Of a stretch of 64,000 nucleotides of DNA, positions 53,974 to 62,900 are shown in pieces. Position 1 is the first letter of the stretch; every line of letters begins with the position of its first letter. Below the pieces are notes generated by a model. That model was not told the origin of the DNA and ran no database searches. It saw only the letters and a list, made by a program, of their open reading frames with translations. The stretch comes from Halichondria panicea. Lineage: Eukaryota; Porifera; Demospongiae; Suberitida; Halichondriidae. The stretch covers positions 4,455,803 through 4,519,802 of the forward strand of contig NC_087380.1 of NCBI RefSeq assembly GCF_963675165.1. Reading direction: 5' to 3'. A program made the position numbers and the translations under genes.

Positions 53974-56900
53974 ATGGCTCAGATTTTGCCCGGTACCGGT
54001 ATGTGCCTTAATTGTGGAGCAATGTTTAATCTAACAGGTAAGTCAGTACATCTATTGCTCAAGATTGATTTTTATCATTGGGCTGGCTATTGGGATTACC
54101 TGTTAATGTTGCTGTTATTTTATACCTCAGATCATGTCCCTTTAAAATTAACATGTGGATGTAACCTTTGTGAAGCTTGTGTGACTCAAAAAACAAGACA
54201 CAGGAAAGAATCAGTTGCATGTCCTAAATGTGGTGTCACTACCACGATGCACAGTCACTTAAAACCGCGAGAGCAATTACCAGCTAACCTATTTGTTCTT
54301 GGTGGTTTGACAGCAGAACGCATGGGATTGATCAGGTAATAAACGGTCTGCGATACTGAAATTACATTTGAAAAAATTATGTGGGCAGCCTAATTATTCG
54401 TTATGTATACTCTTGAGCTTAGGATTAAAAAAATGGTCCAACAATTGTTGGCATTCCATTATTTTGGGTAGCTTCCAGTTTGCCAGCAACAGTTGCGCAC
54501 ACCTAACTAATACCTATTCCCAGTGTGCCCAGGGACATCCGTGCAAGAATGGACACTCTAAAGCAATTTTTAAGTGATTCTGCGTGCCTTACGAATATTG
54601 ATGATGAAGGTCAGTAGCACGTATTCCTGTCCTTGATTGTTTAGTTTGTATGTTTTTACCAGATGCATCTCCCAAGATCTTTTGTGAAGAGTGTAGTCAA
54701 ACTGCAAATGTAAAGTGTGACAAGTGTGGAGGAGTGTACTGCCACTCTTGTTTTGCCGTTGTGAGTTTTATGTGCAACTTTGGTTGTGAGTCTAGACAAT
54801 AACAGTAGCATATGAGGGGATGGAGCGTCTTATTACGCGGAATCTGTATCGTCTTTGCTATGTACAAATCATGCCATATACCGTATAGCTGGTAATTTCC
54901 GGGGACAAAAGTTTTCGTGGTTGGAGCTCAGACCACGAATATTGCAGACCATGAATATTTTACCCACCCACAAATGAAGGACTTTAACAGCAAGCAGCAA
55001 CTTCTTACTGCTAAGTGCTGCTCATTGTTTTGAGTGCATGAAAATGCACTCCTGATTGTGTTCTTCACTATTATCAGATCAAATGCGTTATCAACCACAC
55101 ATTTACAGAGCACTTACACGTTACAATCAAGGAAATGTAGTGTAAACGATAGCAGGAGTACAGTACACTACACTTAATGTACTCCTGACGATAGTGAATC
55201 CGCAATGTTGTATGCATATAGTAAGACCCGCTCCATCCCCTCATATGCTCCTGATTACATGAATTGTATACTAAACTGCATAGTGTTGCTGACCGAATTC
55301 AATGAGCATCACTGCATGTGCTACTGCATGCTCAGTAGACAGCCTCATTTCTAACCTACATTGTTATACTTGGTTTCGAGTGCAGACTTTTTCGATTATG
55401 GATTTCATGTGTCCCATACTGTAGAAACTGGATTATTAATGTGTGGACTAATGTAATGGGGTCAAGAGCAGAGCTCTACATGTGCATGTACAATTTCATG
55501 TATATTCCAGTGCAAAAAACCAACAGTTGAGCATGCGCTTAAAACAAAGTTACGTTTACGGTCAAGTATGCGCTAATAATCCAGTTTCTACGGTGACGTC
55601 ACACACGAAAGAAGACTTCTAATGAGAGACATATTCCGCAATATCGTAGGGCTTCCTGTGATCGAAATTAGTTTCTATTACATTGGCCAGATAGGCGTTT
55701 CCAATCCCACTCTTTTTGACCTGACTAATCAAGTAGCTAGAGATTGTCACTGTAGTGTGGCTGTACTAGCTACATGTATATGGAACTTAATAGAATGTAG
55801 CCTCGATCCCAGGCCGCACTTCCTCAAAGAGTGGGCCTGGTATGGACTGCTTGCGCATGCGCTAACCATTAGCCAGATACCAGCTAACGCAGGATAACAA
55901 CGTGTATACCTACTCTTTGAGTTTAGAAATTCTGGGTTCTGCCTGCATGCAGCAAAATTAAGATGTTCATCATGAAGCTATTGCTAATAGCTAAGTAGAT
56001 TTGTGTTATGTAGCTTTGACACCTCCACCGAGAGGCATCGATCAGCACCCGCGGTGCTTTCGTCTCATTTAGAAAAAAAAACATTGTGGATCAAATAATT
56101 ATATTACGGATTGACGTATGGCTCTGGGTATTATACTTTTATTGCTTTCCCCGGCCAACTAACAGGCCAACTAACAATTTCACATTTGCATGTTTAATTA
56201 TTTTATGGGATTTCATAGCTACATTTGTAGAACCAAAATGCTAGTCAGGGGGATTTAAGGTTTCCCATTTCCACCATCCCAACCAGTACAAAAACGTATG
56301 CGTTTAAAATCAAGATACGCTTATAATCGAGTAAGCGTTATTAAACATGAAAAAATTGTGTTGTGCTGTAAACGCAGCGCTATGCTGACAAAATGGAGGC
56401 AACTGTTCGATCGAGTACAAAACCCTCCACCAAAGCTATATAGCAGACGCTTGACCTGCTCTTGTGCACTAGCTCCATAAATATGTAGTCGTTTTTCTGC
56501 TGTTCCCCCAGGTCCACTCATCTTCTCGATCAATGAGGACTCATGTCAGCACCCCAATCTCTCTGGTTGTTACTACTCCCAGTCCGTGCTCAACCCACCC
56601 TGGAAACATCCATACTCACTACTGTGAGACAGATAAGACTCTTATCTGTCCTGACTGCTTGCTGGAAAAACATAGAGATCACAGTATCAAGAGGTTACAT
56701 GATTTGGTTAGTGGTTTTTGTTTTATGGCTATACAGTAATGTAGTAAGCTAGAAGTACGCGTGTGGGCCTACCGAGTTCTTGAAATAGTCACAAACTCTT
56801 GATATCGTAGGTATTAATTAAACGGGTTGATTTTGTTGCAGGCCAGTGATTATCGTGAGAGGCTTGCCCCTTTGTTGGAGTCTGCAAGTGATACCCTCGC

Positions 56901-59900
56901 TAAAATGTTCGAAACAGAAAAGGTGTGCTTAATGTTTCTGTATTGGCTTTGTATCAACAAACCACATACCTTGTTTACATTTCTATTAGACTCTCGCTGA
57001 CAAGCTGAAGTCTTTATCTAGTCTCCTAGAAAGCAGTGCAGAGTCCGTGCCAGCGTGCTTCGCTCTGCTTCACAATGCACTGGAAACGCAAGGGTCTAGT
57101 GTTCTGAGGGAGCTCATCAAGGCTGTTTCTTTGTATGGCAGACCACTGCAAACTGCTGTGAGTGCAAACTGGTATTGTTTAGCTATAGACTATAGGTGCC
57201 ATCAACACCATAATTATTATATTCTGTTGTTTGCTGTACATATGTATGCGCTGACTATAGGTACCATCAACACCATATATTCTGTTGTTTGCTGCACATA
57301 TGTATGCGCTCTGACTGTCCCCACAGAAAAGGGTTGTGCACAGTCATGTGATGTCTTTGAATTCAGCAGTGAGGGAGACAAAAGCTGCTCTTGACAGTGA
57401 CAATCATATCATCGAGAATGGAGAAAACATATTGTTAAAGCTCTCAAATATTCACCATCTTCCACAAGGACTGGACGTGGACAATCACCAGCCCATCAAG
57501 TGTGTTACATAATATTAGTGTAGCTTTTACTGCCTCTCCGCATTGTTGCAGGTTCAGCGTGTCACCGATCAAGTGTGCTCTTAAATCTGGATGCTTGACA
57601 TTTGATCCGGAGTACAAGGGGTATATACACTCACTTTGTACTTTATGCATACGTGTCAGTGTGGCAATCATTATGTGTTGGTATACCGTATTGTTTTGCG
57701 AGCATCAAACGAGCTTTGCGATGGTTGATCAATTCGCAACAATAAAATCCGCAAAGCCTAAAGTAAATACACACTATCCTTGCCAGAACACAATAGTTAG
57801 TTTGCAAAGGGTCAACTTTTCTGCTGATTTGGCTCATTTGCAATGGTTTTTCACCAGTAAAATATTCTAGTAATACGGTAGTATGCATACAATAATATCA
57901 CCAAAACCAGAAAAATGTAGTTGCATGGAGCTCTGCGCACGTATAGTTACTATATAATTATAATAGTGAGAGGCAATGTACATGTGCATGATTTGGTTTG
58001 CAGGCCGGCTCTACTATGTCGAGATGGCCCAGTGGATCGTAAGTATCTTGACGTCACTGATGAGAGAGATTCCATCCCTGGCTCTTCAGTCACAGGTGAT
58101 TCACAGCTTTTGGTTTAGATTGTGGAAGTGGTACGTACGACATACATGTACGTATATCAGGTTTTGATTACATGGTTAGTCGTTTGCCACGCCCAGAGGT
58201 CAGATATCACTTAAACTTTCACTAATTGTTCGTTTTTGCTGACTCAGCGAAGCTGCATTCCTTTCCGCTTACACATCACTCCTTTTATAGGACAACTAGT
58301 TTGCAACTACTTGTGGTCGGCTGTGGAATGCACCAGACGCATGAAAAACGTTTTTTGCTTACCACTAAATAACTCTAACGGTTATTAACCCGAGGCGCGC
58401 AGGCGGCCTCGGTTACAGTAGTCTGTCAGTCTGTCTGTGTGTCTGCCGCTCAGTTTGGCTTACCAGGAATCACAATTTGTACATAGGGAAACTTAAAACT
58501 AAGGCTTAAAATTTGGCAGATTTTGCAAAGAATTAAGTCTTTGTTTCGCAGAAAAGGCAAGCTAAACCCAAGAAGCTTTTTGCGTACTACTAAACGCAGC
58601 TATTATTTGAAACACCAATATAATTATTCAAGCTGTATGCGGCTATTATTCGAAACATAAACCAACAATTACTGATTGTTTGTGGAAAAGGGTCGATACA
58701 ATAGAAAGCTAAAATTGTGTTTGGTTCAGTTGTATCTGTTAGCTGACTCTGGGATCCTACTCCAGGAGCCATACTTCTCGACTCCAGGCTTCTTTGCTGT
58801 TATCCTAGTCCAAATGTGTATAAAACCTTGTTTTCAAATGTTTCAGCATGCCTCTAGCTGGTATAGCTCCTGAGTTGGTGTGCTAATAAGTCATACATGA
58901 TATTCATCACTACATGCACTGCATTATATGGTTTCTTTATAATCATGTCACGTCACCAGCCGAGGGTTTGCACTTAATTTAAATTAGTACTCTAGTTGGG
59001 TAGGTACTGTGCCAGTATCTAACCACTATGCCAATATCTAGGTACGGGTACAGTGTTTCCTATGATCTCAAAGGTCAAAATGCGACAATGCCTGTATAAT
59101 TATGCCTCTCTTTTGTTGGCAATCTTTGCGAAAACTCACTATTCGCAAAATAAAAAAACCTGTATTCAAAACCTGTTAGTGACATACACATACTATAATT
59201 ATATATATACATGTATAATTTATAATAATAATTTATATGCTTATACCACTTCATGTTACTGTTCATCGTGAATATTTTGGTGGCTTAGCAATCAGCATAT
59301 TTTTCCATAGAGCACTTGGAGATTCCTGGTCAAAGGTCCGAAGTAAGACACTCAGCTACACTATCTTCAAGTATCTCTCCTGTGAGTGATAGAACTGACT
59401 CAAGTATCCAGCACAAGAAAGTTGCCGTGGACATACAAGGAGCTGGTAAGGAATCACGTATCGATTGTGTTATTCTGTATGTCAGTCGATGTTGTTCCAG
59501 AGTACACCTTCAGTTACTATTTTGGGAACAGTTGGAAGCATACCTCGATAAGAGATGCACACATACTAACTGACCAATGTGTTCATGGTTTGTAGCTTGT
59601 TTCCTTATCAAATTCCTTATCCATCTCTCTCTTCGGTCACAGGTGATTCGCATTTAGCTTTTGGCTTAGATACTTACCGTAATTGATGTAATTACAGCGC
59701 CACCATAATTTAAGCGCCACGTCAGCATTAGCATAATTTTTTAGGTCCTCCAACCGTTGTTGGAATTATTTTTTTCTGGCGCTTATAAAAAGGCTTGTTT
59801 AATTTTGAGACATCAAGACAATCATCCTGCATCTTTGACTTCCTTCACTTCTAAACAGTTGTCTAACCCATAACTACAGTCAATGAACCATCAACGTTGT

Positions 59901-62900
59901 TCACAAGTCATTCAGCTCTCAACGGTGCAGCTAGCTAGCAAGTGAAACTGAGCTAGACCACGCCCATTTTCTCTACAAATTCTATACTAGCTGTTGAACA
60001 TAAGCGCCACCATAATTTAGGCGCCAGCTTGGGCTGAACGCAATTTTTTGTGCTCTAAAAATGCGCCACTCAAAAGTGGATTTAATTTTTCTGGCGCTGT
60101 AATTACATCAATTACGGTATATGGATTGTGGAAGTAAAGTCTATTTGTGTTGAGGTTGACCTTCATAATGTTGTCATAATGTTGTCATAATTAATTTTTG
60201 TCATATATACAGTTTACTTACTGAAATTCAAAGTTCATAATTATACCATATGATATAATTATTGTATCTATATGCAGTAGAGCTGATAAGCGTCAACCAG
60301 CGGCTAAAAGTTAGCATTTTCCATGTAGAAGTCCTTGGCATACTTGACAAGTCTTATTAACCACTTAAAACATAAATGAATCCATAATTGACCATAGAAT
60401 TTCGGGCGAACTCAACGCAAATAGACTTTAGTAATCATGTCATGTCACATTGAATGTGAGTGTTAACAACATTTTTTGGGACTTTGTGAAATATTCATGC
60501 AGTTTATAGCCTCTTGCTTTGCATACCCTGAGGGTCTATTCCGGGGCCGAACTCAACTCAATTACCGTATTACTAGAATATTTTGCTGGTGAAAAACCTT
60601 CGCGAATTAGCAGAAAATTTGACCCTTTGCGATCTAACTATTGCGTTTAACTATTGCGTTCTGGCAATGATTGTGTGTATTTACTAGTTACGTTTTGCGG
60701 ATTTTATTGTTGCGAATTGATCAACCATCGCAAAGTTTGCAAATGTTTGATGCTCGCAAAGCATTCCAGTAATACGGTAGTATAATTATACGAGTCAACT
60801 TAGCGTATAATTGTTAGGTTTGAATATACATGATTAGTTATTTGCGAGTGACACTGTATATATGCCCTAGCTATTGCGTTTTAACTGAAAATTAATTAAT
60901 AAGATATTTTATCAATTTGAAACATGCGAAATTGCATGCCTATGCCTATCTTTTGTTTTCAATCAACCCTTGCATTCGATACCCAGTATACGTTTACATT
61001 ATTACATGCACTCCAATGTTGTGCCACTTGATGAGTCAGCGAAGTGTTGCTGTTCATCGTAAATGGCTTCCGTATATTTTGGTGGCTCAGCAATCAATAC
61101 AATTATTCTTTCATAGAGCACTTGGAGATTCCTGGTCAAAGGTCTGAGGTAAGACGCTCAGCTACACCATCTTCTCCTGTGAGTGATACAACTGACTCAA
61201 GCACCCAGCACAAGAAAGTTGCCGTGGACATACAAGGAGCTGGTAAGGAATCTCGTATCAATTGTGTTATTCTAATAATTATGTCAGTCAATGTTATTAC
61301 TGAGTACACCTTCCATTTACCATTTTGGAAACAGTTAGGAAGCACAACTCAATAAGAGATGCACACATACTAACTGTGCATGCTTTGTAGTTTGTTTTCT
61401 TATCACAGTCGCTTGTATTATTGATGGGTTTGTGTATACTGTATAGTGGGTAATTTTCGTGTGGGTAAAAAATTTATTATTTTCGTGGGCAAGCTGTCCT
61501 ACACGAAATTTTTTTACCCACGAAAACCTAAGCGTGGCTTACCGTAACACAAGCAATGCAGTGCAAGCAATGAAGTCAAATGAAATTAATACTCACGAAA
61601 ATCGAAAATCACTGTTTTCCAATTTTTTACCCCATGAAAATTACCTGATATACGGTACGTACAGTGATTTGCATCACAGTTGTCCAGAGCAAGAATTGAT
61701 ACAATATAAGTTAACTATTGCATTCCCTCCTGCATACAAATAATATAAAATTATGTGTGTATTTAATTATAATGCGTGCATGCAGTTAGTAGCTTCATGT
61801 CGTAAAGGTTTGGCGTCTCACCGAGGCATCAGCATGCACCCGTATTTCATTATGAAATCAAGTAGGTACTCATGCCTGACACTGTACACTGTAAGGAGTC
61901 ATTTTCTAGGCCAGAATTTTCTGAATTCCGAGATATTCATCTATAGAATATATAGCACACTTACGTTGGTTTGAGCACACACATTTTTGTCATTGAAATG
62001 TGAAAATGTTGTCCCTCGAAAGTTACCATACGGTACATTAATACTCGTACAGATGATGTACTGGTTACACATATGGAGAGCCTAGATGAGTTTTATGTCC
62101 AAACTCAACAGCAACAGGCACAAGTGGCTGAAATCATGGCTCAGCTACATGTAGAAGACCATTCTGTTCTTTTGTCTGCGGATGACCTTTATATAGGTAA
62201 GTCTTACTCTGTATTAGCTGTGTACATTATAATGGCCTCTATCATTATGCCTCTGTGGTGCATGCGTAGCGAGGTATACGGCAATGTGTGTGTATCACCA
62301 CTTCTATGCCTCTCGACAGTTACAATTAAAGCACAGGAAAGAGCCGTTGTAGGCTGTTTTATTAGATTTTGATTCGTGAATTTGTAAAAAAAAAAAAAAC
62401 ATTTCGTATCTCAACTTATGGCTACCTTGATGGCCATTTCAGTCTCTTCAAACTCGTTCATAGAAAAACATTTAGTTATTCTTCGCTCTGCAATAGAGTG
62501 CTATCAAGTGTTTTCACGGTACATTGTGTCCTGATAAGTTAATAAGAGTCGATCCCTTCACTGATTGCGCAGGTCTCCCTTGTGCTGCAATTTTCTCCCA
62601 GGATGGGAAATGGTACAGAGCCAGTGTAACACGCTGCCTTGGGAACCATTCAGTGACAGTGAAGTATGTTGACTATGGTAACTCAGAGGATGTGGGTTTG
62701 TTGAGGTACGTTAATACTTAAATTAGGACGCGAAGTGTATGTACAATTAATATTTCCTCGATTATCCGGACTTAATTGATATGAATACAGAAGGACTTGG
62801 ATGAACAGAATAGTGCAAAAGTGTGGGAAATGATGCCCGTGGTTCCTAAAAAGGATGCTAACGTTCTTCGAAGTCTTAATGACTGCCTCATAAAATGAAA

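Follow-up and report, generated by a model that had tools for sequence, protein, structure and literature searches.

Results

Organisation of the locus

We analysed a window of 64,000 nucleotides (nt) from the sponge Halichondria panicea (contig NC_087380.1, positions 4,455,803 to 4,519,802 of the forward strand), in the last part of which lies a gene for a probable multi-Tudor protein. RNF17 has N-terminal RING and B-box zinc fingers with several Tudor domains downstream, and from this domain order we take the gene to be RNF17-like, which is a fair name for it. A small exon of this gene is present in two neighbouring copies, which are the subject of this work together with the exons on either side. 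In what follows all positions are those of the window unless a contig is named, and a slash marks a splice junction.

58004-58095, plus strand: preceding exon, 92 nt, with the acceptor GCAG (by inspection) and the donor CACAG/GTGATT; its open frame continues into both copies
59311-59445, plus strand: predicted duplicated exon, copy 1, 135 nt or 45 codons, phase 1-1, from alignment and frame
61117-61242, plus strand: predicted duplicated exon, copy 2, 126 nt or 42 codons, phase 1-1, from alignment and frame
62053-62196, plus strand: next exon, where the first Tudor domain begins; both copies lead into it in frame

Each copy is preceded by AG and followed by GTAAGG. The local alignment of 59272-59610 with 61074-61405 comprises 350 columns, 29 of which are gapped, and 293 of the 321 ungapped columns are identical (91%). 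A 29-nt pattern from the start of the exon has two matches in the window and none in 100 shuffles. Alignment, splice signals and pattern bear out the initial annotation, which had placed near-identical exons at these two positions. The donors are identical across 16 positions (GAGCTG/gtaaggaatc), and the acceptors are similar, with a middling pyrimidine content (12 and 13 of 20 positions). DNA and protein searches of the assembly (131,455,214 bases in 39 contigs), which score only the candidates of a first-pass screen, gave two matches each, both at the locus, and found no third copy or retrocopy.

Both copies begin and end in phase 1. Translation of 58004-58095, the copies and 62053-62197 in all combinations shows that the frame stays open with both copies, with either one or with neither, as had been proposed; the downstream exon was taken one base past its donor in this test, which does not affect the frame. 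The codon frame of the exon that ends at 58095 continues in either copy; copy 1 is likewise in frame with copy 2, and each copy with the exon at 62053. From the frame and the splice signals we infer that both copies are exons. The encoded peptides had been called Ser/Thr-rich; by count, serine and threonine make up 11 of 45 residues in copy 1 and 11 of 42 in copy 2, and neither peptide contains an aromatic residue.

Extent and origin of the duplication

The homology does extend into both flanking introns as first described, but the size of about 360 bp given then did not hold: the best-kept part measures about 340 bp, while the duplicated unit is about 1.55 kb long in copy 1 and reaches into the preceding exon.

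58071-59611, plus strand: first copy of the duplicated unit; its right edge lies within 59611-59619, as the alignment stops at 59610/61405 and the relic begins at 59620
59620-59642, plus strand: exon relic of 23 nt, which repeats the preceding exon's 3' end and has the donor GTGATTC behind it; it also reads as a pyrimidine tract with CAG/GTGA

Comparison of 57900-59620 with 59600-61420 by blastn revealed a second block of homology, in which 58071-58120 matches 59620-59671 with 81% identity over 54 columns and two gap openings. Its local score of 58 compares with at most 29 in 300 shuffles of the sequence between the copies and at most 25 in the window outside 57901-60200 on both strands. The block consists of the 3' end of the preceding exon together with its donor (TCACAG/gtgattcaca versus TCACAG/gtgattcgca), the last 25 nt of the exon recurring at 59620. 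The alignments thereby put the 5' breakpoint at about 58071, within the preceding exon, and the second one at 59611-59619, and they show that the cut end of the exon persists as an intronic relic between the copies.

Along the DNA, the series exon end, intron, exon and intron part occurs twice in succession, as a single tandem duplication would leave it. The copied stretch of about 1.55 kb took in the final portion of an exon, the intron behind it, the small exon in full and a portion of the intron that follows. The pair shows what is expected of a tandem exon duplication, namely adjacent homologous exons in the same gene and on the same strand, homology into the introns and definable breakpoints. 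Beyond the initial annotation, the analysis adds the full size of the unit, a breakpoint that falls within an exon, and the donor kept in the relic.

An assembly artefact, with two haplotypes placed in tandem, is unlikely and carries barely any weight in our judgement. The intron flanks differ at 24 of 213 sites and by 7 indel events, and each copy is accompanied by different repeats. Moreover, the preceding exon is represented between the copies by its 3' part alone and contains the breakpoint, which is the signature of a tandem duplication and not of a haplotype join.

Two uses of the relic in splicing were considered and rejected. As part of a cryptic exon beginning after the AG at 59594-59595 it would yield a frame-shifting exon of 47 nt, and use of its donor by copy 1 would read into a stop; either event would be harmful if common. 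There is a slim chance that the relic serves as a zero-length recursive splice site (CTCTCTTCGGTCACAG/GTGATTC), in which case the intron between the copies would be removed in two steps and the joining of the copies could be influenced. Pyrimidines occupy 16 of the 20 positions before the relic CAG. YAG/GTRA with at least 15 of 20 pyrimidines upstream occurs 14 times in 528,000 strand bases, or about once per 38 kb with the relic included, in a count that covers both strands of the window and of 20 other regions and is not confined to introns; finding a site of this type at any one position is thus unusual without being remarkable. If the preceding exon represents the parent state, the changes in the relic removed an inner AG and a GG. 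Were the relic so used, it would be a ratchet splice site born by partial exon duplication.

Repeats in the introns upstream of the two copies

Three repeats lie in the introns before the copies, two of which resemble miniature inverted-repeat transposable elements (MITEs).

58384-58975, plus strand: interspersed repeat in the intron before copy 1; matches in the genome fall mostly in 286-904 of the query 58096-59271 (best 40 of 1097 candidates scored)
59675-60119, plus strand: MITE-like inverted-repeat element in the intron before copy 2, with 39-nt arms that are 90% complementary
60563-60779, plus strand: second MITE-like inverted-repeat element in the same intron, with arms that are 73% complementary

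The element at 59675-60119 recurs in full length or in part in at least 39 other places with 81-91% identity (40 scored of 290 candidates). One relative is found at C4:4532915-4533357, about 13 kb beyond the end of the window. At least 39 other places likewise hold the element at 60563-60779 (40 scored of 2083 candidates), and the gene carries a related copy further upstream, in inverted orientation within an intron at 57684-57880 (78% over 218 columns).

None of the three repeats has an aligned counterpart in the other copy. Most simply, they would have entered after the duplication, the alternative being loss from one copy. Because only short further patches of likeness remain when the repeats are left out, such as 59101-59124 versus 60941-60964, the remainder of the upstream introns must be diverged or replaced. 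For an inverted-repeat pair at 60135-60430, a possible third element in this intron, the search gave no support but leaves some likelihood of a repeat: among the 40 scored of 2083 candidates (query 60120-61075), all matches other than the self match start at query position 435 or later. Only when this pair was left out as well did the aligner pair the relic with the exon end. In the intron after copy 2, the stretch 61450-61640 resembles by eye a further inverted-repeat element (TTTTCGTGGG and its complement).

How common such local duplications are in this genome was estimated from 20 other 10-kb regions at round-number positions on contigs C1-C16. Direct repeats with at least 80% identity, non-overlapping and within 6 kb of each other, reach at least 150 nt in 8 of the 20 regions and at least 330 nt in 5, the latter threshold being near the 350 alignment columns at the duplicated exon. 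An overlapping self match of the tandem-array type is absent from 3 of these 8 and 2 of these 5 regions. Mobile repeats and arrays are counted as well, and the figures therefore set an upper guide for simple duplications. It is no great surprise to find an exon within a local duplication, and the locus is ordinary in kind.

Divergence of the copies

The exon copies differ at 7 of 126 sites, and their sole indel measures 9 nt and is in frame. This 9-nt difference had been described as a loss of three codons from copy 2; the difference stands but its direction does not, since, with no outgroup to compare, the three codons may instead be a gain in copy 1. Four of the changes alter the protein and three are silent, corresponding to a nonsynonymous distance (dN) of 0.043, a synonymous distance (dS) of 0.108 and a ratio of 0.40. 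At the protein level the copies differ at 4 of 42 aligned residues in addition to the three codons. The distance K of the intron flanks is 0.122; synonymous and intron rates thus agree, and they fit a single duplication. Protein constraint on the copies is suggested, not significant (exon versus intron, P = 0.083; nonsynonymous versus intron, P = 0.053; nonsynonymous versus synonymous, P = 0.36).

The rates may be neutral-like, which would be compatible with only one copy being a working exon and the other an unspliced or minor remnant. On the other hand, acceptor, donor and frame are kept in both copies and the single indel in the exon has a length divisible by three, and we regard this explanation as improbable.

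Splicing of the two copies

A single tandem duplication followed by splicing of both exons in series in most transcripts is the explanation that we favour as probable. Both copies have kept their splice sites, their frame and most of their protein sequence after the duplication. Splicing in series would lengthen the stretch before the first Tudor domain to 87 residues, compared with 45, with little effect beyond length.

The initial annotation had seen in this arrangement one that allows splice choice; that it points to such a choice is not supported: frame compatibility permits every splice outcome and enforces none, none of the exclusion devices looked for was seen, and the pairings described below were no better than those of shuffles. 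If one or both copies were cassette exons, transcripts with two copies, with one and with none would coexist without strict exclusion. All four copy combinations are in frame and the acceptors contain only 12-13 pyrimidines in 20, both of which would suit such use. The identical GTAAGG donors of the copies speak against it, and no regulatory sequence was identified, although no systematic search for one was made. Cassette use is conceivable, with a clearly minor share of our expectation.

Mutually exclusive use, in which exactly one copy is included according to tissue or stage, is unlikely in our assessment. Homologous neighbouring exons of similar length and matched phase are the typical anatomy of mutually exclusive exons. 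In the docker-selector duplication model, as set out in passages of PMC6071210, a duplication that includes the flanking introns can give rise to pairs of this kind. Competing RNA pairings with a common docking site are a known, though not universal, mechanism of exclusion. We calculated duplex energies in 40-nt windows between the flanks of both copies and two stretches, the rest of the downstream intron (61412-62052) and the sequence that lies 5' of the unit (57620-58070). The pairings common to both copies were within the range of shuffles, 14, 7, 52 and 20 of 60 shuffles being as good, which leaves exclusion by competing RNA structures unsupported in a test that is weak in that it uses one genome without conservation and could miss a short real pairing. 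That the duplication created a left docking site in the upstream intron is also disfavoured, because the unit takes in the whole of that intron.

Besides RNA pairing, known devices of mutual exclusion are steric hindrance, a conflict between U2 and U12 splice sites, and a frame-based bar. No bar to joining the copies was seen in the intron between them (59446-61116), which is 1671 nt long, has GT-AG ends and leaves the joined frame open, branch points not having been mapped. A minor-spliceosome conflict was not seen at the copies either, which have GT-AG ends and ordinary donors as judged against the consensus. Transcripts that include both copies stay open, and therefore no decay filter would remove them. 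The protein copies differ so little, at the four residues and three codons given above, that there is little to choose between. The length of the intron and the two repeats that it holds also argue against exclusion. In OGDH, according to a passage of PMC7969005, distant branch points enforce mutually exclusive exons, limit intron size and keep transposons out.

Domain content of the gene

The gene that was initially called RNF17-like shows a B-box, a RING-like stretch before the Tudor part, and a series of Tudor domains. Against Pfam the B-box scores 37.2 bits, above its cut-off of 24.1, while a first B-box-like piece (14.5 bits, cut-off 24.1) and the best RING model (20.5 bits, cut-off 25.2) remain below theirs. 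The exon that follows copy 2 holds the start of the first Tudor domain, which supports the position assigned to the pair just before the Tudor core: exon 62053-62196 matches positions 5-39 of PF00567 with 19.1 bits, which taken alone falls short of the 23-bit cut-off, and the next piece, 62497-62718, matches positions 51-95 with 48.6 bits. With the numbering of the window continued past 64000 and sequence up to 83798 covered, pieces of four Tudor domains were found, three at 62563-62694, 66685-66858 and 69749-70102, and a fourth at 72797-73042 in two pieces of 25.7 and 20.4 bits (cut-off 23). A PDB search with one Tudor exon, which returned 29 sequences, listed TDRD1 first, followed by a Tudor-and-KH-domain protein and Drosophila Tudor.

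Between the B-box and the duplicated exon no Pfam match was obtained in 56990-57391, 57315-57509, 56818-56997 or 57921-58118, and the open frame of 94 residues that holds copy 1 matches no Pfam family. It is plausible that the linker containing the duplicated exon is disordered.

Elsewhere in the genome, 17 of the 51 Tudor-domain matches fall in an uninterrupted open frame of 4162 residues at C2:2982919-2994015, and 11 in an open frame of 2989 residues at C2:2504561-2512270. These giant multi-Tudor frames are intronless over the two intervals.

Discussion

Serial inclusion of both copies is in our view the most likely outcome at this locus, weighed at about two in three as a judgement rather than a measurement. 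Tandem duplication is common and mutually exclusive splicing of the copies is not, as stated in a passage of PMC9741552, and mandatory inclusion of a duplicated exon has a precedent in PMC2394523. Three points weigh against this explanation. We infer serial inclusion from the DNA sequence alone; the tests of constraint are not significant, and therefore a copy may be neutral or skipped; and the model in the passages of PMC6071210 has such duplications readily yielding competing structures and mutually exclusive splicing. A passage of PMC9013439 treats the step from duplication to mutual exclusion in that model as an open question. If RNA showed serial inclusion, the change in linker length would be of little note, while regulated choice would mean that a probable germ-granule Tudor protein has diverse isoforms in an animal that is not among the well-studied ones.

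Kondrashov and Koonin in 2001 and Letunic et al. in 2002, both cited in PMC9741552, have reportedly described tandem duplicates of exons in animal genes. A 2002 study, as quoted in a passage of PMC9013439, found them in about 10% of animal genes. The present pair is like them in being adjacent, homologous and phase-symmetric, with a local duplication that includes intron sequence, and unlike them in having a breakpoint within the preceding exon and, as a result, a donor-bearing relic, and in belonging to a gene and lineage other than those of the examples considered. The vertebrate COE genes, as far as the passages of PMC2394523 describe them, resemble our case in that an exon is duplicated and serial inclusion is expected; there, however, a variant helix-loop-helix (HLH) motif is involved, whereas here the exon encodes a stretch without a Pfam match. 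With the docker-selector exons of Dscam and srp (passages of PMC6071210) the pair shares neighbouring duplicated exons of like length and phase. In contrast to them, no common pairing above shuffles is found here and the transcript with both exons is in frame.

At the level of search listings for RNF17, Tudor and sponge literature and for exon duplication in sponges (Amphimedon), and in the passages seen of PMC10359003, this exon is unreported. The locus is a clear example of exon duplication, in which the breakpoints, a cut exon fossil with an intact donor and copy-specific repeats can all be read. The gene itself is like RNF17 in having a RING-like stretch, a B-box and several Tudor domains, a likeness by domain order. 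According to a passage of PMC10359003, mammalian RNF17 is a germ granule protein with a long and a short isoform, RNF17L and RNF17S.

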